DNA of 40,304 bases, taken from the NCBI GenBank assembly GCA_035764005.1, contig DASTZZ010000102.1:1-40304 (forward strand), read 5' to 3'. How positions within the stretch are numbered: position 1 is the stretch's first letter; each line of letters begins with the position of its first letter. Below are positions 14,287-24,289 of this stretch, piece after piece. The notes under the pieces were generated by a model. The model saw only the letters and a list, made by a program, of their open reading frames with translations. It ran no database searches and had not been told where the DNA came from. The position numbers and the translations under genes are program-made. Origin of the DNA: Terriglobales bacterium. GTDB taxonomy: Bacteria; Acidobacteriota; Terriglobia; Terriglobales; Acidobacteriaceae.

Positions 14287-14356
14287 GTTGTTCCTCGCGC
14301 AAACAGTGTTCAGTTTCATGACATCCTTTCCACTCTGTTCCGAGACATCCTTTACA

Positions 14357-14393
14357 CTCCCGCGCGAGCGAGCGGGAGAAATGGTGCTACAAT
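14357..14393 (+). promoter_or_regulatory. Extended -10 promoter with adjoining palindrome
   Basis: TGCTACAAT (14385-14393) matches the extended -10 form TGnTAnnnT, 24 bases before the ATG at 14417. Immediately upstream, CTCCCGC (14357-14363) and GCGGGAG (14372-14378) form a perfect 7-bp inverted repeat that could be an operator. No good -35 box is present. Confidence 0.4.
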
Positions 14394-14416
14394 CTCGCCG
14401 CAAATTCAGAAACCCC

Positions 14417-16509
14417 ATGCCCCTCACCAGATTCACGGTTCGCCTTGGCATTCTCTGCACTTTCTGCGCCGTCGTTGGACAAAGCGCGTCGGTTTCCGTC
14501 CCAAAACCTCCAGATACTCGTCGCGACAATGTGATGGAAACAATGCACGGAGTTGCAATCTCCGATCCCTATCGCTGGCTTGAAGATCAGGAGAGTCCCG
14601 AAACCCGCAAGTGGATTAAGCAGCAAAACGACTATACCCACGGGCTGCTTGATGCTCGGCCAGGAAGAGATCGACTCCAATCCCGCTTTGCGGAACTTCG
14701 GAAAGTTACAAGCATTCGGTTGCCGATCGAGCGCAATGGAAGGTACATCTATAGCAAGCGGCTTCCCGATCAGGATCAATTTGTAATTTATAAACGCGAC
14801 GGCGCTGACAGTAAGGAGGAAGTACTCATCGACCCTAATCCGATGAGTGAGGATCATTCGATCAACGTTGAGCCGATAAGTCTTTCTTCGGATGGCAAGA
14901 TATTGCTTTATCAGCTTCGTCATGGCGGCAAAGACGAGACTGAAATTCATGCTTTTGATATTGATCGCCGACAAAATCTACCCGACGTCTTGCCCGAAGC
15001 TTTGTATTTCGATGCGTCAATGCTCCCCGACCACAGCGGTCTTTATTACTCCATGATGGTTCCTGAAGGACCACGCCTGCGTTTCCACAAAATGGGAGAC
15101 GACTCGAAACAGGATGTCGATGTCTTTGGAAAAGGCTACGCGAAGGATAAGGCCGTGATTGGGGAAGTTACCGAAGACGGACGCTACCTGGTCATTCAGG
15201 TTTGGTATGGTTCCTCAGGCGATCAAATCGAAGTATGGTCTCAGGATTTGGCGGCTCACAGCGAGCTGAAGCCGCTGGTTAAAGACATCAAGGCACGATT
15301 CCTACCTTTCCCTGGCGGGAATAAGTTGTATCTGCAAACCAACTGGAAAGCCTCTCGCGGCAGGGTGTTGATGGCGGACTTTGACGATTCGGACCCCTCA
15401 AAATGGCGGGAAGTAATTCCGGAAGCAGAGGACGCGATCGAGGCATGGCAGTCGCCGGCGGCAAGCTCTTCCTCAGCTACGTACATAATGCATCTTCCGT
15501 TGTGAAGGTGTTTACTGCTTCAGGCAGACCAGCGGGCGAAGTAACGCTTCCCAGTTTGGGATCAGTGCCTGAGATAAACGGCCACTGGGAAGGTCAGAAC
15601 GCATTTATAAACTTTCGCTCGTATACGATTCCAACTACGCTCATCCGATATGAGGCAGGCAGCGGCAAACAGTCTATATGGGCTCACGCAGAAATCCCGC
15701 TGGACAGCAACCGATTTGAGGTAAAGCAGGAATGGTTTCTCTCAAAAGACGGCACCCGCGTTCCCATGTTCATTATCAGGAAGCGTGACCTCAAGCTCGA
15801 CGGAAACAATCCCGTCTGGCTAACCGGGTATGGTGGTTTCGATTCCAGTAATCTCCCGTTTTTCAATCCGCAAGCTATCGTCTGGGCCGAACATGGCGGA
15901 GTCTTTGTCGAAACTAACCTTCGCGGCGGCGGTGAATTTGGCGAAGAGTGGCATCGGGCGGGCATGCTGGATCACAAGCAGAACGTCTTCGATGATTTCA
16001 TCTCTGCTGCACAATGGCTGATCGAGCATAAGTACACGAATCCCACGCGGCTCGCGATCGAAGGCGGCAGCAATGGTGGGCTATTGGTGGGAGCCGCCAT
16101 GACCCAACACCCAGAACTGTTCCGCGCCGTCATTTGCTGGCATCCGCTTCTCGACATGCTTCGCTATGACAAATTCATGATGGCCCAATTCTGGGTTTCC
16201 GAATATGGCACAGCGCAAGATCCGGAGCAGTTCAAGTACCTTTATGCCTACTCTCCTTACCAGCACGTGGAGGAAAACAAGAAATATCCCGCCGTACTGT
16301 TCATGACAGGGGATGGGGACACCCGCGTTGCTCCACTCCACGCGCGGAAAATGACTGCAGCAATGCAACGAGTCACTGCTGGGGATCGGCCTGTGCTATT
16401 GCGGTATGAGCTCATCGCCGGACACGCCGGTGGTCGCTCGGCCACACAAACCATTGGGGATGATGTCGATCAATTCACGTTCCTGTTTTGGCAATTAAAC
16501 ATGAAGTGA
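14417..16509 (+). pseudogene. Prolyl oligopeptidase (S9A) with one frameshift
   Basis: Two overlapping frames together make one complete exported S9A peptidase of about 697 residues. The first part, from ATG 14417, has a signal peptide (MPLTRFTVRLGILCTFCAVV) and the DPYRWLED/ETRKWIKQQN opening of the family, then the propeller. The second part resumes at AVAGGKLFLSYVH and contains the catalytic domain: nucleophile Ser in GGSNGG, Asp in GDGDTRVAP, His in AGHAGG. The frame changes by one base between 15437 and 15448 (ATCGAGGCATGGCAG), as if one base were missing. No slippery heptamer is seen, so this is a mutation or a sequencing error rather than programmed shifting. All catalytic residues survive, so the damage may be recent or artefactual. 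Confidence 0.85.
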
Positions 16510-16956
16510 AGATGAACCTGCAGGCCTGATTGCCGGGCTCCATAAAAGGAGATGTCAAGAGCAAACAGCTGTCCTGATCAGATGGGAACACAGCGCTCTG
16601 GCATGTCCCAGCACTGGACATAAAAGCCGCGTGAGGACGTGGCACCGGCGACCTACAATTCCTGCGTGAGCGCCAGAATCGTTCTCCTCTTGACCTTCAA
16701 CGCTGCCTTGCTTGTATCCGGCAGATCGCAGTCCGGCGTATCGAACAGCGCAGCCTCCAGAGATGGTCCCTGCCGGCTACGAATTGCTGCGCATAGATCG
16801 CGACCAGCCCCACACAATGAAATCGTGCTGAACCCGGAAATCTTTTCGTACATGTGGAAAGAGAACGAGGAGAACGAGGGACAGCCTGATCCGCCCTATT
16901 TTCTTTATAAACGCCCAATTGCGGTTTGCGACACGGCAGGTGAAAATCGGACTGCC
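16510..16956. other. Gap with repeat modules before the AhpD-like gene
   Basis: The reading frame of the next gene stays open back to 16639, but that part shows no family resemblance and holds repeat modules: GGAAATCTTTTCGTACATG at ~16838 and AGCCTGATCCGCCCTATT at 16883. The latter recurs after the gene. A 23-codon frame at 16551 overlaps its own AAGGAG and is unconvincing. Confidence 0.5.
16883..16900 (+). repeat. 18-bp direct repeat, left copy
   Basis: AGCCTGATCCGCCCTATT matches 17574-17591 at 17 of 18 positions. The pair brackets the AhpD-like gene. Confidence 0.6.
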
Positions 16957-17553
16957 ATGAAGAGTTCAGCATTCGATAAAGCAGAAGCCGCAACTCGCGC
17001 CCCGGGTGTTCAGGATCACGAGGCATCGCCTTCCATTCTGGCCGCGTTCCGTCGCGCCAAGCGGCGGTATGGTCATGTACCGCTTTCAACCCGTATTCGT
17101 GCCACAGAGCCGAAGCTGCTCGACGCTGCGGAGCGGATGAACAAGTACACCGCTTCGCCTGGAGCTGTCGACCCAAAATTGAAGGAGCTGGTGCAACTCA
17201 AGGTTGCAGCCATGGTTGGATGTCCGTTTTGAATCGATCTCCACTCTGCCGTGAGCAGAGAGACAGGGGTCACCGAAGAACAGTTACTTGAATTGAGACG
17301 TTTTGAAGAAAGCTCCAACTTCAGCGGAGACGAAAAATTAGTTTTGCGGCTGGCGGTGGCCCTCACGCGTACACCGGCCGATGTTTCCGACGACCTTTTC
17401 CGCTCGCTTCGCAGCCGCTTTTCCGAGCTTGAGCTCGTCGAACTGAGCGCAGCCATCGCCTGGGAGAACTATCGCGCTCGCTTCAACAGGACTTTCGCGG
17501 TCGGCTCTGAGGGATTTTCTGAGGGCAATTTTTGTCCGCTGCCGGAAGGGTAG
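16957..17553 (+). CDS. AhpD/CMD-family protein with in-frame UGA; candidate selenoprotein
   Basis: This is a carboxymuconolactone decarboxylase/AhpD-like protein of 198 residues if UGA 17230-17232 is read as selenocysteine. The core reads KELVQLKVAAMVGCPF-U-IDLHSA. It preserves the AhpD signature E-x11-C-x2-C-x3-H (Glu77, Cys89, residue 92, His96), with UGA at the second cysteine, the position of Cys133 in M. tuberculosis AhpD that is thought to react with peroxide. Coding similarity continues in the same frame to the natural C-terminus (EKLVLRLAVALTRTP, ELSAAIAWENYRARFN, GSEGFSEGNFCPLPE). A hairpin at 17244-17260 lies where a bacterial SECIS belongs. The start at 16957 precedes MKSSAFDK; upstream residues look non-coding. 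AhpD-like selenoproteins are known, so this is probably a member. The alternative is a TGC/TGT-to-TGA nonsense mutation. Confidence 0.75.
17238..17263 (+). promoter_or_regulatory. Candidate bacterial SECIS hairpin
   Basis: CTCTGC (17244-17249) pairs perfectly with GCAGAG (17255-17260) around the loop CGTGA. Outer TCT (17238-17240) and AGA (17261-17263) can extend the stem past a CCA bulge. The apical loop begins 17 bases after the UGA, within the usual range for SelB-recognised elements, and contains G residues. It also encodes conserved residues, so pairing alone is not proof. Confidence 0.55.
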
Positions 17554-17966
17554 TGCCATCGAAAAGTGCGGGAAGCCTGATCCGCCCTGTTCTTCTGCTG
17601 CGGCTAGCCCGCCCTTCCCATTCTGGACTTCGACGGAGTCGCGGGCGAGTACGCGGATAATCAAGCGCGAAAGCAGCAGCCGAGCAACAAGCCGGGGAAT
17701 GGATCGAAGAGGAGCTGGACCGACCTCAGCGCTTCGAAAAACCGGGGAGTACGGAGAATGGACGAGGAGCCTTACCGGCAGCAATTTAAGTCTCAAACAT
17801 CGCGGGAGATTCTTCGTCCGCCTAAGGCGGACTCAGAATGACAGGTTGAGAAGGCATTAGCGGAGAGGCATGAGGAGCCTCGGTGCCCCCCAAGAAACTC
17901 ACTTCCGCTGAATCTGAGCTGAGGAGCGTGGTACATCCTCAAGCTCGCCTAGGCCTGACGCGGCTG
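17554..17966. repeat. Repeat-derived gap
   Basis: No gene is supported. It starts with the right copy of the 18-bp repeat (17574-17591). GAGGAGCCTTACCGGCAGCA and TTAAGTCTCAAA (17764-17797) form a copy of the element at 7865. This is followed by CGCGGGAGATTCTTCGTCCGC and CAGAATGACA, the same arm found inverted at 19145-19326. A GAGGAGCCT word recurs at 17871. Confidence 0.65.
17574..17591 (+). repeat. 18-bp direct repeat, right copy
   Basis: AGCCTGATCCGCCCTGTT, 21 bases after the stop of the AhpD-like gene; partner of 16883-16900. Confidence 0.6.
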
Positions 17967-19361
17967 TCACTGTTCTTTAATGCTGACTTGAGTTCCCGGC
18001 TTCAGCTCGTCGGTTCCACGGACGGCGACGAGGTCATTGGCTTGCAGATCGCCGAATGCTTCGATGGAATTTCCCGATGTGACACCCGGTTTCACGTCGA
18101 TCCATTCGACTTTGCCGCTCTGCACACGAACAACGAAGGTTCGCTGCAGGTCGTTAGCAATTGCGGTTGTCGGTACGAACAGAGTCGGAGCCGTGCGCTG
18201 CGATTGCCACTGCACTGTCACGAACATTCCGGGAACTAGCTGCGGCTCTTTCTGGATGCCGAGTTCCACGGCCATAGTTCTGGTTCGCTCGTCAATGGCG
18301 TGCGAAATGCGCGCAATCGGCGCATGAAAGGTCTTTCCCGGAATGGAATCCGCTGTGAAGTTCACCTGCTGCCCGTCTCGGATTCCGATGGCATAGTCTT
18401 CCGGGACATCGATCACCAGCCGGGCTCTTCCGGTGCTTTCAAGCCGCAGAATCGGTGGCGCTCCAGTTCCGGTTGATGGTCCAACCAGCGCGCCGGGATG
18501 CAGATTGCGTTCGGTGACAACGGCGTCAAACGGCGCACGAATTTCGAGGTAAGACTCCAGCTCGCTCACGCTCTTGAGCCGCTGTCGCGCGGCAACGGCG
18601 TTCTCCTGCGCAGCCTGCACCTGCGCCTGATCGGAGGCAGTGGTCTGCTCCGCTACGGCCACGTCGTTCTCCGCCACCACTCCGGGCGTTTGCGCTGCAT
18701 TTTTCAAGTGAAGATAGGTCGTCTGGTCTGAAGCGAGCTTCGCCTTGGCTGCGACCACTTGCGACTGCGCAGCATTCACTGCCGCTTCCGCCTGCGTGCG
18801 CTGCGCGACCAGTTCCGGAGCCGAGAGCTTTACCAGAAGCTGTCCGGCTTTCACGCGCGAACCGCGGTCCACCGGAATGGCCGTAATGAAGCCGGACTCT
18901 TTCGGGAATACGTCAACCGATTCGTATGCCTTGATCTGCGCAGGAAGCGCGATGGTGGTGTGAAGTAGTTGCGATTTTACGGTCGTGACTACCACGGTGG
19001 GCGGAGCCGACGCCTGCGGCCTGGATTGGGAATTCCCGCCGGAGCAGCCGAGAAGCAACGCGCAGGTAAAGCTCGCGACAGCGAGCTTTCCAACAGCGCG
19101 TAATTCACGAAGTGTTTCGCAACGGTGGTGACAGAAAGAGAGACTGTCATCCTGAAGCGCTTCTGTTGCGCGAAGGATCTCCCGCGATGTTTCGGATTGA
19201 AAATGCAGTTGCGAGGCTCTTCGGCCCATGTCGGTGGAGTTCCTCGTGAAGGAGCCTGACCAGCGGCGACTAAGTCTGAAATACCTCGGGAGATCCTTCG
19301 GCCAAAGGATGGCCTTCAGGATGACAGGTCGTCCGCAGTATTCAAGTCCTTGGGCGTTCAT
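17967..19361 (-). CDS. RND efflux periplasmic adaptor (MFP/HlyD-type lipoprotein)
   Basis: This is the membrane-fusion subunit linking the RND pump to the TolC-like channel. After a lipoprotein signal (ASFTCALLLGC; Cys106 of the 464-aa frame) come a lipoyl half-motif (VPVDRGSRVKAGQLLVKLSAPE) and a long coiled-coil hairpin rich in Ala/Gln (~175-260). The second lipoyl half (LEIRAPFDAVVTERNLHPG), beta-barrel and membrane-proximal domains follow. The ATG at 19361 overlaps the RND stop as ATGA. The ~85 residues between that ATG and the signal peptide are not MFP-like and are mostly encoded by a repeat inserted at 19145-19326. No ATG, GTG or TTG lies between the repeat and the signal peptide. The native start is apparently lost or moved (ATG 19229 inside the repeat is the nearest); export may be affected. 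Confidence 0.85.
   Translation of the reverse strand: MNAQGLEYCGRPVILKAILWPKDLPRYFRLSRRWSGSFTRNSTDMGRRASQLHFQSETSREILRATEALQDDSLSFCHHRCETLRELRAVGKLAVASFTCALLLGCSGGNSQSRPQASAPPTVVVTTVKSQLLHTTIALPAQIKAYESVDVFPKESGFITAIPVDRGSRVKAGQLLVKLSAPELVAQRTQAEAAVNAAQSQVVAAKAKLASDQTTYLHLKNAAQTPGVVAENDVAVAEQTTASDQAQVQAAQENAVAARQRLKSVSELESYLEIRAPFDAVVTERNLHPGALVGPSTGTGAPPILRLESTGRARLVIDVPEDYAIGIRDGQQVNFTADSIPGKTFHAPIARISHAIDERTRTMAVELGIQKEPQLVPGMFVTVQWQSQRTAPTLFVPTTAIANDLQRTFVVRVQSGKVEWIDVKPGVTSGNSIEAFGDLQANDLVAVRGTDELKPGTQVSIKEQ
19145..19326. mobile_element. MITE-like inverted-repeat element inside the adaptor 5' end
   Basis: The left arm TGTCATCCTGAAG (19145) and the right arm CTTCAGGATGACA (ending 19326) are perfect inverted ends. 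Similarity continues inward for about 49 bases, including CGAAGGATCTCCCG opposite CGGGAGATCCTTCG. The 182-bp unit has no transposase frame. Its centre carries GGAGCCTGACCAGCGGCGACTAAGTCTGAAA-like sequence related to elements at 7865 and 17764. It is non-autonomous at best. Confidence 0.7.
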
Positions 19362-22300
19362 TTCTCCACTCCGAATGTACTTGCTGGATCATCCGGATCA
19401 AGCGACACAGACTCCAACGACGTCCGCCGTTGCGCGCTCCCGAATACCGCGGGCAAAACCAGCAACGTCGCCACAGTCGCCGCGATCAATCCACCGATGA
19501 CTGCGCGGCCCAGCGGAGCCGTCTCGGCGCTGCCTCGTCCAATGCCCAGCGCCATCGGCAACATACCGGTGATCATTGCCAAGCTAGTCATCAGTACCGG
19601 TCGCAAGCGCTCGCCCGCCGCATTCCTCGCAGCGGCGCTTGCTTCCTGATCTTTCCTGCGATTCTGCTCGGCAAATGTCACGAGCAAAATCGCATTCGCG
19701 ACGGCTACGCCGATTGCCATGATTGTTCCCATGAAGCTTTCGAGATTGAGGCTGGTGCCTGTAATCAGCAGCATCAAGGCGGCGCCCGCGAGCACTGCTG
19801 GCACTGTCGAGACCACCACAAATGCCAATCTCAGGGATTGAAAGTTTGCCGCGAGCAACAGCAGAATGACAAGGATGGCGATTCCCAATCCGACACTCAG
19901 ATTTCCGAAGATCTGATTCATGGCCGCGATCTGTCCGCGCACTTGCACGGTAACTCCGCGGGGGGGAGTGCCCGACCGCTGAATGGCGCGTTGTACGTCA
20001 CGCGCTGCGCGGCCTAAATCGGCGCTTCCCAAGTTAGCCGAGAGCACGATCATCCACAAGCCATTCTGGCGATCGAGTTCGCCGGGCACACTGCTGGAAC
20101 GCACGCTGGCGACTTGGCTCAGCAGAGGACGCGCTCCCGTTGAACTGGCCACTGGAATGTTCTGAACGGCCTGGATCGACGTCATCTCCGGCTGCGGAAT
20201 CTGCACCTGGACCTGATAGCTCACTCCCGATCTGGGATCGCGCCAATAGTTCGGTGCGACAAACCGGCTCGAAGCGGTCGCCGCGACCACAGCTTGTCCG
20301 ACCTGATCGGCCGTGGTTCCCAACTTACCCGCAAGCACACGATTTACGTTGACGTCGATCGTCGGAGCATGGAGCGGTTCAGCAAATTCGAGATCGCGCA
20401 ATTCCTCGACCCTGGCCAATTCCTGGCGTAGCTTTTCTGCGTGGCCAAGCACGTCGTTGTACTGCGGCCCGGTGGTCGCGACATCGATGACCGTAGGTGA
20501 GCCGAAGCTCAGGGTCTGGCCAATCAGGTCTCCGGGTTCGAACGAAAAACGCGTTCCGGGAAACTGCTTCGCGAAGCGCGCTCGCAGTTTCTGTTCGAGA
20601 TCGCGCACGGACATACCGCTTTCGGGACGCAAAGAAACGTTCATCACCGCTTCCTGTGGGCCGCCGGTCCACAGAAATACCGTGTTGATCGGATACGACG
20701 AGCCCTGGGTTCCCACGTAACTCAGCGTGAGATCGACAGCATTGCCCGCTTCCTCATGAATCGCATTCAACACCTCGCGCGCAAGCTGTTCCGTAACGGG
20801 AACGCGCGTGCCATCGGCGGCGTCGATGCGCAAGCGGAACTGGTTTGTTGCCGAAGAGGGGAAGATCTCGCGTCGGAGCAAAGGAACGGTAACAACCAAC
20901 AACAAAATGCAAGCCGCAGAATATATTCCAAGCAAAAGCGCGCGGTTACTCAGTCCCCGGTCCAACACGCGAAGGAATCTCTGACGAAAACGCTCGAAGC
21001 GCGTTTCGGATGTAGATCCCTGCTCCGCGTGCTCGGGCTTGAGCAGCCAATTCGAGAGTACCGGCACGAGCGAACTCGACAGCAAATAGGAAGCAGCCAT
21101 CGAGAAGCCCACCGCCAAAGAAAGCGGCACGAACAGTGCTCGCGCGGCACCGGCCATGAAAAATGAAGGGACGAAGACGGCGAGCACGCTGAGCATTGCC
21201 AGAAATCTCGGGGTCGCTACCTCGCGGCTGGCTTCGAGAATGGCCCGCGCTTTGTTCTCTTCTGCAGCAAAATGGACGTAGATGTTTTCCAGTGCGACAG
21301 TGCCTTCATCGACGAGAACGCCGATCGCGAGCGCCAGCCCGCCGAGCGTCATGATGTTGATCGTCTGCCCCACTGCCCAGAGCGCAACCACCGCGATCAG
21401 AAGCGCTAGAGGAATTGTGATCACCACGATCAGTGAACTTCTCCAGTCGCGCAGAAAAAGAAACAGCGTGAGTCCGGTAAGGATCGCGCCGAGAATGCCT
21501 TCGCGCAGCACCGACGACAGGGCGTCGCGCACATACTGCGACTGATCGAACTCATAGCTGATCTTGATGTCTTCGGGCACGAGCGACTGGAATCGCGGCA
21601 GGCTCTCCCGTACCTCGCGCACCACGTCGAGCGTGGAAGCATCCGGACGTTTCGTTACGGGAATATAGACAGTGCGCTTGTCATTGAGCAGCGCATATCC
21701 GGCAAGGATGTCCGAAGAATCTGAGACGCTTCCTACATCGCGCAAATACACCGCAGCGCCTGGTCCAGTGCGCAGAGGGATCTCGAGCAGGTCCGAAATC
21801 TGGCGAACTGTGGTGTCGGTTGTGACCATCTCCGAGTACTGTCCGATGTTCGCGTTCCCGGCCGGCTCAATGCTGTTGCCGGAGAGCACTGCTTGAACGA
21901 CCGATTGCGGTGACAGCCCGTAAGCGTGGAGCTTCTCCGGACGCACGCTGATCACGATCGTGCGCTGATTGCCGCCGAACGGCGGTGGCGAGGAAACTCC
22001 CGGCAGCGTGGCAAAAATGGGACGCACGCGGTTGAGTGCCAGGTCCTGAATTTCGCCTAAAGTGCGCGAGGGCGACGAGAACACGAGATAGCCCACCGGC
22101 AAAGTGCCGGCGTCGTAGCGAATCACGAATGGCGACACCGTGCCCGGCGGCATAAACGCTCGCGCGCGATTCACATATGAGATCGTCTGTGCCAGCGCCT
22201 CGCTCATGTTCGTTCCAGGATGGAAGCTGAGGCGCAGGAGCGCATTGCCTTGGATCGACTTGGCCTCGACGCTCTCGATACCGTTGATGTAGAGGAAGTG

Positions 22301-22507
22301 ATACTCGTAGTAATACGAGATGAATCCTTCCATCTGCTGCGGACTCATGCCTCCGTACGGCTGCGCAACATAGATGACAGGAAGGTTCAAATCGGGAAAG
22401 ATATCAACGCGCGTGCGCAACAAGGCGAGAATCGAACACAGCGCAAATCCGAGCACCACGATGACGGTGCTGATGGGCCGGCGAAGCGCTGTGCGAATGA
22501 GCCACAT
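19358..22507 (-). CDS. RND efflux transporter permease
   Basis: The inner-membrane pump of the tripartite system has 1049 residues from ATG 22507, which lies four bases after the TolC-like stop; the frame open to 22567 only overlaps that gene. Landmarks are TALRRPISTVIVVLGF (TM1), DIFPDLNLPVIYV, PYGGMSPQQME, the central hydrophobic block GILGAILTGLTLFLFLRDW, TM4 GVLVDEGTVALENIY, and the second half from LLLGIYSAACILLLV with its own porter domain and TM block. In TM4 the usual Asp-Asp pair is Asp-Glu. In TM10 the position of the AcrB-type Lys is Ala (GVAVANAILLV). This is a subfamily with a different proton path from AcrB; the substrate is unknown. The stop overlaps the adaptor ATG. Confidence 0.92.
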   Translation of the reverse strand: MWLIRTALRRPISTVIVVLGFALCSILALLRTRVDIFPDLNLPVIYVAQPYGGMSPQQMEGFISYYYEYHFLYINGIESVEAKSIQGNALLRLSFHPGTNMSEALAQTISYVNRARAFMPPGTVSPFVIRYDAGTLPVGYLVFSSPSRTLGEIQDLALNRVRPIFATLPGVSSPPPFGGNQRTIVISVRPEKLHAYGLSPQSVVQAVLSGNSIEPAGNANIGQYSEMVTTDTTVRQISDLLEIPLRTGPGAAVYLRDVGSVSDSSDILAGYALLNDKRTVYIPVTKRPDASTLDVVREVRESLPRFQSLVPEDIKISYEFDQSQYVRDALSSVLREGILGAILTGLTLFLFLRDWRSSLIVVITIPLALLIAVVALWAVGQTINIMTLGGLALAIGVLVDEGTVALENIYVHFAAEENKARAILEASREVATPRFLAMLSVLAVFVPSFFMAGAARALFVPLSLAVGFSMAASYLLSSSLVPVLSNWLLKPEHAEQGSTSETRFERFRQRFLRVLDRGLSNRALLLGIYSAACILLLVVTVPLLRREIFPSSATNQFRLRIDAADGTRVPVTEQLAREVLNAIHEEAGNAVDLTLSYVGTQGSSYPINTVFLWTGGPQEAVMNVSLRPESGMSVRDLEQKLRARFAKQFPGTRFSFEPGDLIGQTLSFGSPTVIDVATTGPQYNDVLGHAEKLRQELARVEELRDLEFAEPLHAPTIDVNVNRVLAGKLGTTADQVGQAVVAATASSRFVAPNYWRDPRSGVSYQVQVQIPQPEMTSIQAVQNIPVASSTGARPLLSQVASVRSSSVPGELDRQNGLWMIVLSANLGSADLGRAARDVQRAIQRSGTPPRGVTVQVRGQIAAMNQIFGNLSVGLGIAILVILLLLAANFQSLRLAFVVVSTVPAVLAGAALMLLITGTSLNLESFMGTIMAIGVAVANAILLVTFAEQNRRKDQEASAAARNAAGERLRPVLMTSLAMITGMLPMALGIGRGSAETAPLGRAVIGGLIAATVATLLVLPAVFGSAQRRTSLESVSLDPDDPASTFGVEK

Positions 22508-22511
22508 AGTT

Positions 22512-23921
22512 CTATTGCGTACCGCTCGATGCCTTTTCGGCGTCTGCCAGAAATGAAGTGAGATCACCCGCAGCGAAGCCGGTTGCCAGCAACGCTCTCC
22601 ACACGCTCAGCCTGGCAACAGCCTCTTCACTCTCCGCGTTTACGAGTAACTGCTGCGCATCCGCCAATTCGACCAGAGTTGCAAGTCCGGACTTGTACCT
22701 CGCTTCGGCCTGACGGTCGCTCTGTTGCGCAGCGGACAACTCAAGCTCGGCATTTTTCGCAATTTCGATTGAAGTTTCGAGCGAAGTTCTTGCCCGCTGC
22801 TCTGCCGCGGTGAGCTGTTGAACGGTTCCTTCGTACGCTGCCCGCGCGCTGCGTTCGTTTGCGGCTTCGATTTGTTTGCGAGCGCGAAGCGAGAAGATAT
22901 CGAACGGAGAAAATGTCGCAGTAATGCCGAGAGCCCAGTTGTAGCGATCAGGGACCAGTCCATTGTCTCCTCCGAGAAACTGGCCGGTGTTGTTCAATCC
23001 ACTGCCGCGTCCGGAAATGCCGGATTGGAGCCGGAACTGCGGAACGTAGCTGCGATCGAGCGCGTGCTCTCGCGCCTGGCTCTGCTCGACCTCGCTGAAA
23101 GCGAACCTGGCAGCAGGATTCATTTTTATGTTCGGTTCTGTAACGGGAACAGTGGGCGCCACAATCGAGAGCGATCCTGGAGCGATTTCCACATTCTGCC
23201 CTGCAATCCCGAGAGCCTCTGCCAGTTGAATGAGCGTATCTTGTTCTGCCTGCTTCGCGCGCAGGAATTGTGTGCGTGCCGCAGCAAGCTCGGCATCGGC
23301 ACGCGAGGCGTCGGCTCCGGGACGAAGCTGGTTATCAACGAGCACATGAATGGACTTGGCCAAAGTCTCGCGGCGATCGACATTGGCTTTCGCGGAAAGG
23401 GTCAGCCGCTGTGCCGCAGCCGCTTCGAGAAACGCGTTCGCGGCATTCGCCTCTACGTCCAACTTCGTGACTTCCAGTTGCGCTTCGGCGGCGTGCTCTC
23501 CGGCGCGAGCAACGTTCACGTTGGCAGCGCGAAGTCCAAAATCGAAAGGCTGCCACGAGAGCAGAGCGCCAGTTCCCGTGTTCCAAGCGCTCCGTCCTGA
23601 AGTGTCCGGCAGAACGGTTCCTGAAAGCGATGGCAGAACGCTTTGCGGCAGCAGTTGTCCGGTGATGTTGTTGTAAGTGCCGCGATTCGATTGCCACATC
23701 ATGTCGGTATGCGGCAGGTAATCAGTCCGAGCAAGTTTGACTCCGGCTTGAGCCGCGATCAGTTTCTGCGCAGCCGCGCGTGCCTGCGGATAATGCCCAA
23801 GCGCGAACTCGACCGCTTGCCTCAAGGTGAAGGAATTCGGCGGAGATGACCCGGGCGCCTGTTGAGCGGCGAGGCTGATTGTCCAAACAATCAGCGAGAC
23901 GAAAACAATCTGTTTCTTCAT
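22512..23921 (-). CDS. TolC-like outer membrane efflux protein
   Basis: The 469-residue outer-membrane channel has a signal peptide (MKKQIVFVSLIVWTISLAAQ). Two OEP repeats follow: the first from FTLRQAVEFALGHYPQ to ~220, the second from ~265 (NPAARFAFSEVEQSQARE) to the end. Each holds long Ala/Glu/Gln helices that form the periplasmic barrel. LARTDYLPHTDMMWQSN is the usual inter-helix beta segment. Its ATG overlaps the padR stop (ATGA at 23918-23921), indicating translational coupling. It precedes the permease and adaptor, so the operon carries all three pump parts. Confidence 0.9.
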   Translation of the reverse strand: MKKQIVFVSLIVWTISLAAQQAPGSSPPNSFTLRQAVEFALGHYPQARAAAQKLIAAQAGVKLARTDYLPHTDMMWQSNRGTYNNITGQLLPQSVLPSLSGTVLPDTSGRSAWNTGTGALLSWQPFDFGLRAANVNVARAGEHAAEAQLEVTKLDVEANAANAFLEAAAAQRLTLSAKANVDRRETLAKSIHVLVDNQLRPGADASRADAELAAARTQFLRAKQAEQDTLIQLAEALGIAGQNVEIAPGSLSIVAPTVPVTEPNIKMNPAARFAFSEVEQSQAREHALDRSYVPQFRLQSGISGRGSGLNNTGQFLGGDNGLVPDRYNWALGITATFSPFDIFSLRARKQIEAANERSARAAYEGTVQQLTAAEQRARTSLETSIEIAKNAELELSAAQQSDRQAEARYKSGLATLVELADAQQLLVNAESEEAVARLSVWRALLATGFAAGDLTSFLADAEKASSGTQ

Positions 23922-24289
23922 TGTTTGTGCCTCGCCCTGCCGGTCCGCTTTCCTGCATGCTGATCCTCAAACAGTTCAGAGAAGAGCTCCCATACTTTCT
24001 GCTTCGCCGCTGCCAAAGCCTTTTCTCCGGCGCGCGTGGCACGATAAATTCGGCGACGCCTGCGTCCGTTTCGTTCCTCCCGCGAGCGAAGCAGGCCGCT
24101 CACCTCCAGGCGATGCAGCATGGGATAGATGGTGCCTGCACTCAGTTTGTAGCCGTGTCGTCCCAACTCTTCGATCATTCCCAGGCCGAAGATCGATTCT
24201 TCGCAGGCGTGGTGGAGAATGTGCAGCCGAATGAGCCCAGAGTAGAGGTCCTGGTAACGATCTTCGGCTATGGTGAAATGACGTGCCAC
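23918..24289 (-). CDS. PadR-family transcriptional regulator
   Basis: The 123-residue PadR protein has a winged helix covering ~20-90: LIRLHILHHACEESIFGLGMIEELGRHGYKLSAGTIYPMLHRLEVSGLLRS, then the wing EERNGRRRRRIYRATRAGEKAL. A short basic C-terminal helix follows, with no large effector domain. As first gene of the padR-tolC-RND-MFP operon, it most likely represses its own transcript and is released by a pump substrate, as LmrR-type PadR proteins do. The palindrome 40 bases upstream fits that role. It overlaps the next gene by four bases. Confidence 0.92.
   Translation of the reverse strand: MARHFTIAEDRYQDLYSGLIRLHILHHACEESIFGLGMIEELGRHGYKLSAGTIYPMLHRLEVSGLLRSREERNGRRRRRIYRATRAGEKALAAAKQKVWELFSELFEDQHAGKRTGRARHKQ

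Follow-up and report, generated by a model that had tools for sequence, protein, structure and literature searches.

A reading frame of the AhpD/CMD family that is interrupted by a single UGA raises the question of whether the gene is broken, divided between two proteins, or intact and decoded through the stop with selenocysteine (Sec). The locus lies on the plus strand of the window, by which we mean the whole stretch of Terriglobales DNA that was analysed (40,304 nucleotides). Its frame runs from 16957 to 17550 and is followed by a TAG stop (17551–17553), and the interrupting TGA (17230–17232) is the only one, at residue 92. A preliminary description had placed this codon at the second Cys of an E-x11-C-x2-C-x3-H motif, with family-like sequence before and after it; both statements hold, the spacing included. 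The window motif is E77-x11-C89-x2-U92-x3-H96, and the active-site sequence KELVQLKVAAMVGCPFUIDLHSAV holds Glu77, Cys89, Sec92, and His96. Pfam CMD (PF02627) matches residues 52–133, across the UGA, at E 3.2e-16 (59.5 bits, above the gathering cut-off of 23), and the homologous frame continues on either side. We read 16957–17553 as one gene in which UGA inserts selenocysteine where the AhpD/CMD active site has its second Cys, and judge this reading, from sequence comparison, to have a probability of about 0.96. Despite the apparent break, the gene is in all likelihood complete and codes for a redox enzyme that contains selenium.

Ordinary gene prediction will divide this protein in two; in the machine listing of open reading frames, the first one here ends at the UGA and another, of 100 amino acids, opens at GTG 17251. 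The 5′ end of the gene is less sure. Many homologues in the alignment used for structure prediction (A3) begin about 11 residues later, at starts that were chosen by script, and upstream of the ATG at 16957 there is only an AGGTG, at some distance. No sigma-70-like promoter was found at 16500–17950, and an Rfam scan of the window gave nothing above gathering scores.

Table 1 Coordinates of the predicted selenoprotein gene and its elements in the window
Feature	Position	Strand	Remark
Predicted AhpD/CMD-family selenoprotein gene	16957..17553	+	198 residues including Sec92; start codon uncertain
UGA codon probably read as selenocysteine, residue 92	17230..17232	+	Homologue codons and the genome's Sec machinery
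Codon for Cys89, the likely resolving thiol, at the start of CPFU	17221..17223	+	Cys in 63 of the 63 TGA rows of alignment A1
Bacterial SECIS-like hairpin	17244..17260	+	6 bp stem CUCUGC/GCAGAG, 5-nt loop CGUGA

Homologues carry TGA or Cys codons at residue 92 throughout the alignment that the preliminary description had proposed. The genome_contigs collection was scanned with the protein written with Cys for Sec, which gave 43 loci; since Cys stood at residue 92 in one of its six peptide patterns, the scan was not biased to TGA. A match at E 1e-20 is present in 28 of 100 genomes, the window's own included. Across 74 stretches, again counting the window, the codon is TGA in 66 and TGC or TGT in 8 (locus L065 does not cover the site). 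By record title, the TGA stretches of the collection scan belong to Acidobacteriota (29), Planctomycetota (4), Actinomycetota (3), Myxococcota (3, with one further TGC stretch), and Gemmatimonadota, Fidelibacterota, and Pseudomonadota (1 each); most of these stretches are metagenome bins, so that individual cases may be misbinned. The nearest homologue, L023, is 63% identical to the window protein over residues 8–198. Upstream of the UGA (60 residues) the identity is 63%, downstream of it (99 residues) 68%, and third codon positions are the least alike on both sides (0.40 before, 0.41 after).

When 399 genomes of the class were later searched with a profile, 43 of them yielded 47 matches, of which 45 contain an internal TGA and 2 are free of stops. 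Seventeen of the 47 match rows received no locus, 8 of which were read from earlier loci and 9 of which were left unread (G779 among them), and L116, L118, L126, and L132 were left out as repeats of earlier loci. A further 27 rows were read at this codon, L100 from a search of the phylum and the other 26 from the search of the class; they have TGA at the site in 25 cases and TGC in 2 (genomes G613 and G755). These rows are not all independent, since some look to be of the same species as earlier ones (for example L115 and L025, L120 and L023); L120, from a genome of the window's class (G709), looks the same as the copy of L023, an Acidobacteriota record. Wherever the codon was read and is not TGA, residue 92 is Cys (10 of 10 rows). 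Both G613 and G755, whose Cys copies lack the hairpin described below, have selA and selB, and such natural Sec and Cys forms offer a comparison that could show what maintains selenocysteine.

These counts bear on the reading that TGA replaced a TGC or TGT codon, either by nonsense mutation, leaving a pseudogene, or through an error in base calling. The gene is indeed patchy: of 396 genomes of the phylum, 4 (its own included) have a match at E 1e-30 or better, and of five relatives of the same genus two lack any match and three have only paralogue-type ones (E 7e-26 to 6e-28). Against a pseudogene, however, the same TGA stands in 65 other rows under the record titles of seven phyla, third codon positions remain the least conserved after it, and the hairpin that follows is conserved, so that we consider decay or error highly improbable; the presence of the TGA in independent lineages, along with the hairpin and the Sec machinery, in our view already refutes it.

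The preliminary description had also noted a perfect 6-bp hairpin with a 5-nt loop at the distance expected of a bacterial SECIS, and we find it as described. Its apical loop opens 17 nt downstream of the UGA, with G as the second base followed by U. The SECIS passages of a 2026 review model the bacterial element as a small apical loop with a G in its first two bases, and place that loop 16–37 nt from the UGA in most cases (PMC13188914); in both loop sequence and distance, the window hairpin agrees with these passages. In the window register, a G occupies one of the first two loop bases in 62 of 66 TGA rows.

The folding energy of the window hairpin is ordinary against shuffled sequences (z −0.05), and a stem of at least 6 pairs is common by chance, following 1139 of 5000 TGA sites picked at random from the retrieved DNA. 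Such a stem follows the UGA in 65 of 66 TGA rows and in none of the 8 Cys rows. All six pairs in the window register are present in 49 of 66 TGA rows, none of the 8 Cys rows, and 45 of the 5000 random sites. What goes beyond chance in the hairpin is its conservation. Pair counts were taken from an ungapped alignment (A2) of 59 of the 66 TGA rows, a selection that leans towards structure because it leaves out L056, L063, L064, L073, L087, L089, and L090, which have a hairpin in shifted register or belong to another clade. In this alignment 97.2% of cells pair, compared with 39–57% when the partner is slid by 1–3 columns. Both sides have changed in 29 cells (shuffled mean 8.9, none of 500 shuffles as high), a count that related rows inflate; these double-sided changes fall at three of the six pairs, and the other three pairs never vary. 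Protein conservation explains part of the stem conservation, since the stem lies in coding sequence (mostly S-A-V-G-R), yet in rows such as L062, L058, and L100 other residues or codons are used and the stem still pairs. Among the later rows, a stem of at least 6 pairs follows in 25 of 25 with TGA and in neither of the 2 with TGC. Copies with TGA thus retain the hairpin, with compensatory changes, and copies with Cys lack it, the reverse of the lack of conservation that the preliminary description had named as evidence against selenocysteine.

The genome that contains the window (5.1 Mb in 131 contigs, 97.5% complete) encodes a selenocysteine pathway. As the preliminary description had suggested searching for, selA, selB, selC (tRNA-Sec), and selD are all four present. 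The match for selA scores 552 bits against a cut-off of 268 (1 of 14 control genomes over the cut-off), for selB 381 bits against 242 (2 of 14), and for selD 360 bits against 125 (2 of 14). The tRNA-Sec match (65 bits against the Rfam cut-off of 47) is less specific, with 5 of 14 controls also over the cut-off, which is why the ARAGORN call of a tRNA-SeC with anticodon tca in the same genome matters as backing for it. The genome's selD (L020, 1501–2580, minus strand) has an in-frame TGA at the GUASK site (KAAGUASKLSP), a well-known Sec site of SelD; SelD itself therefore looks like a selenoprotein.

Across genomes, selB usually accompanies the TGA copies. Among the 100 genomes, selB is over its cut-off in 21 of the 22 with a TGA copy (own included), compared with 54 of the 78 others (Fisher p 0.012, kinship uncorrected). 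The exception, G073, is 54% complete and is without selA too. Of 31 further genomes with a TGA in the match, 27 have a selB match at E 1e-60 and 26 reach the cut-off, selB in G607 being present only as a piece below it. A selB match at E 1e-60 is absent from the other four: G779 (99% complete), G563 (91%), G718 (73%), and G735 (59%). The first three have selA over the cut-off, and G735 has neither gene; we read these cases, tentatively, as draft-assembly gaps or divergent selB. In G056 the homologue lies 160–250 bp downstream of selB on the same strand. ARAGORN found no tRNA-Sec among 43 scanned loci.

A UGA might also be read as another amino acid, through near-cognate suppression or a variant code; nothing was found that favours this. 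The selenocysteine machinery is present, the hairpin goes with TGA and not with Cys codons, and every non-TGA row has Cys at this residue, all of which leaves decoding as a different residue very hard to credit. With decoding as selenocysteine, the first step of function would be for the ribosome to read UGA 17230 as Sec by way of SelB, the hairpin at 17244–17260, and a tRNA-Sec to whose charging SelA and SelD contribute. We consider this step nearly certain from the codon, hairpin, and gene-content comparisons.

We predicted the structure of the protein with AlphaFold2 on alignment A3 (39 rows, the window and the collection scan only), with Sec entered as Cys. The model has a mean pLDDT of 93.7 and a pTM of 0.88, and one confident fold continues through the site. 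The helix at residues 90–102 begins within the CPFU motif, and residue 92 lies inside it. The product is best explained as an all-helical AhpD/CMD-fold selenoprotein of about 22 kDa. The model also bears on two separate proteins, one ending at the UGA and the other restarting at GTG 17251, where a frame of 100 amino acids does open. Both breakpoints would lie inside the active-site helix. By eye no ribosome-binding site precedes this GTG, as had been observed before, and the codon in its place is GTG in 30, TTG in 3, and no usual start in 33 of the 66 TGA rows (window included), so that a restart deserves almost no weight. The pseudogene, the restart, and readthrough with another residue were each rejected on the grounds given for them.

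Foldseek, scored by query length, returns structures at TM 0.73–0.80: Bmp8, Mlr4105 (3c1l), the peroxidase-related proteins 2prr, 2pfx, and 2oyo, and 6k40 from D. radiodurans. The top matches are the debrominase Bmp8 (6ohj and 6ohi; TM 0.74–0.75, 21% identity), which aligns over most of the chain and was also found by sequence. Classical AhpD, such as that of M. tuberculosis, uses a Glu/His relay and two redox Cys. The window protein resembles it in the redox residues of C-x2-C/U and in having the Glu and the distal His, and differs in having Sec for the second Cys and Phe91 for the His between the cysteines; the window copy holds Glu77, Cys89, Phe91, Sec92, Asp94, and His96. Most TGA rows, on the other hand, are without the Glu and the distal His. 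In alignment A1 (70 of the 74 rows, excluding the fragments L063, L072, and L086 and a weak second hit in L082), Cys89 is present in all 63 TGA rows, Asp94 in 60, His96 in 11, and Glu77 in 8. The TGA rows without Asp94 are L087, L089, and L090, of the other clade. Of the 7 Cys rows, 6 have Glu77, 6 have His96, and 1 has Asp94 (L055, a Cys row inside the window clade). Since the Cys forms L055, L128, and L129 all keep Asp94, this residue marks the clade rather than the presence of Sec. Where classical AhpD would use its Glu/His relay, most members of the clade have Asp94, and we infer that it may replace the relay there.

In a second step, the selenolate of Sec92, at the N-terminal end of the active-site helix, would attack a peroxide or another electrophile; Cys89 would then close a selenenyl-sulfide bond, and a cellular thiol reductant would reopen it. 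The predicted fold, the CxxU motif, and AhpD chemistry incline us modestly towards this redox cycle, with a peroxide, as the preliminary description had suggested, as one putative substrate. Another Cys near the C terminus, the third, at window residue 193 (17533–17535), lies in the motif GFSEGxFCxLP, is common to many A3 rows, and might take part in the redox cycle.

The alternative that survives best accepts the selenoprotein and disputes only this second step, with the enzyme acting as a thiol-disulfide oxidoreductase or in the manner of a reductive dehalogenase. The leading structural matches, to Bmp8, which is also found by sequence, speak for it, as does the loss of the AhpD Glu and His from most TGA rows (8 and 11 of 63 retain them, respectively). 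Nevertheless, 3c1l, 2prr, 2ijc, and 6k40, all AhpD-like, score about as well, so the Bmp8 match does not single out debromination; there is no sign of halogenated substrates for the window protein, and the window's own copy keeps both the Glu and the His. A non-peroxidase function is thus a real possibility, but one that we rather doubt. Gene context offers the proposed reaction no support, because the 19 neighbours scanned share no partner gene and are mostly unrelated to each other; we therefore propose no partner. These 19 were taken from 135 neighbouring open reading frames listed at the genome_contigs loci (10 upstream ones scanned with Pfam, 9 with NCBIfam, in addition to the selB of G056). 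They include SnoaL, DUF4760, PIN, lysine-decarboxylase-like, DUF1684, amino acid permease, YCII, and ABC proteins, among others, and a signal peptidase is upstream in both scanned loci of one subclade (L056, L057).

Selenoproteins of this general kind are known, as the preliminary description had stated. AhpD-like CxxU forms appear in the selenoprotein lists of the Sargasso Sea (2005) and GOS surveys (PMC1088965, PMC2398784), and a figure legend of the former reports a SECIS for the Sargasso Sea AhpD-like protein (PMC1088965). The window protein resembles these entries in belonging to the CMD/AhpD family and in placing Sec at the second CxxU position. In the family entries of these sources, AhpD-like 1 corresponds to COG2128/TIGR01926 and AhpD-like 2, or CMD-like, to PF02627 (PMC1088965, PMC2398784, PMC13188914), and an 'AhpD-like protein, CxxU' is filed under TIGR01926 in the review (PMC13188914). 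The CxxU AhpD/CMD selenoprotein is therefore an already known kind, of which the window protein is a new member or a new branch.

We then compared the window protein with family models. It passes only the general models, Pfam CMD and the AhpD core domain TIGR00778 (46.5 bits against 27.8). For TIGR01926 (peroxidase-related enzyme) it scores 40.7 bits, below the cut-off of 81.8. Its best NCBIfam match is NF053654 (GroundWater_YciW, YciW-related (seleno)protein), a family whose name allows Sec forms; the score of 115.9 bits is below the cut-off of 310. All 70 rows scanned match NF053654, and the best of them, L076 (motif CVFU, 261.6 bits), is also below the cut-off and sits on a long branch of unsure place. 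None of the 20 clade members scored individually reaches the cut-off of NF053654 or TIGR01926. A maximum-likelihood tree of the 70 rows splits 61 rows with the window (60 TGA, 1 Cys) from the other 9 (6 Cys, 3 TGA) with support 100/99. These 9 include L087 (motif CDYU), which passes TIGR01926 at 98.5 bits, and the long branches of L062 and L076 meet, which makes their placement unsure. The window clade is mostly Acidobacteriota, and the rows nearest to the window bear Acidobacteriota titles; together with the likeness of L120 to L023, this leads us to assign the window to that phylum. The window protein differs from AhpD-like 1 in falling below the TIGR01926 cut-off and in lying across a well-supported branch of the tree from the TIGR01926 member L087. 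Its clade may be part of AhpD-like 2, as far as the family entry describes that group, under the broad Pfam CMD model.

On a bolder reading, the clade is an unnamed AhpD-like subfamily almost wholly committed to selenium (CPFU-x-D), in which Asp94 replaces the Glu/His relay, ranging over Acidobacteriota and the record titles of six other phyla. The scarcity of Cys forms would then reflect a chemistry that strongly favours Sec. Against this, L055, L128, and L129 keep the Asp with a Cys, which is evidently tolerated, and we put forward such a subfamily only tentatively, at somewhat less than an even chance. The protein belongs to a branch of a known enzyme family that has drawn little notice, and almost all copies found in this branch would carry selenium at the active site. 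The literature found on selenoproteins together with Acidobacteria or Acidobacteriota says little on selenium use there.

Related genes recur within single assemblies. A Pfam CMD search of the window genome points to four places, two of which have a TGA: the window gene and C19:184546-184965, which is 39% identical to the window protein over residues 45–185 (L095). The latter belongs to a second AhpD-like gene (G000:C19:184447-184977; L102, L095) of a different subclade, again with TGA at this site and followed by a similar hairpin. A Planctomycetota contig (L028, 3276–4594) holds two neighbouring copies, each with TGA and hairpin. Elsewhere in the window, a prolyl oligopeptidase at 14288–16509 (plus strand) is split, through a frameshift or an assembly error, into two overlapping frames: 14288–15505 covers most of the S9 N-terminal propeller, and 15403–16509 covers the end of the propeller and the S9 peptidase. 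An RND-type efflux set at 17967–24289 (minus strand) comprises an HlyD-like adaptor, an AcrB-family pump, and an outer membrane efflux protein, together with a PadR-like regulator (23918–24289, minus strand).
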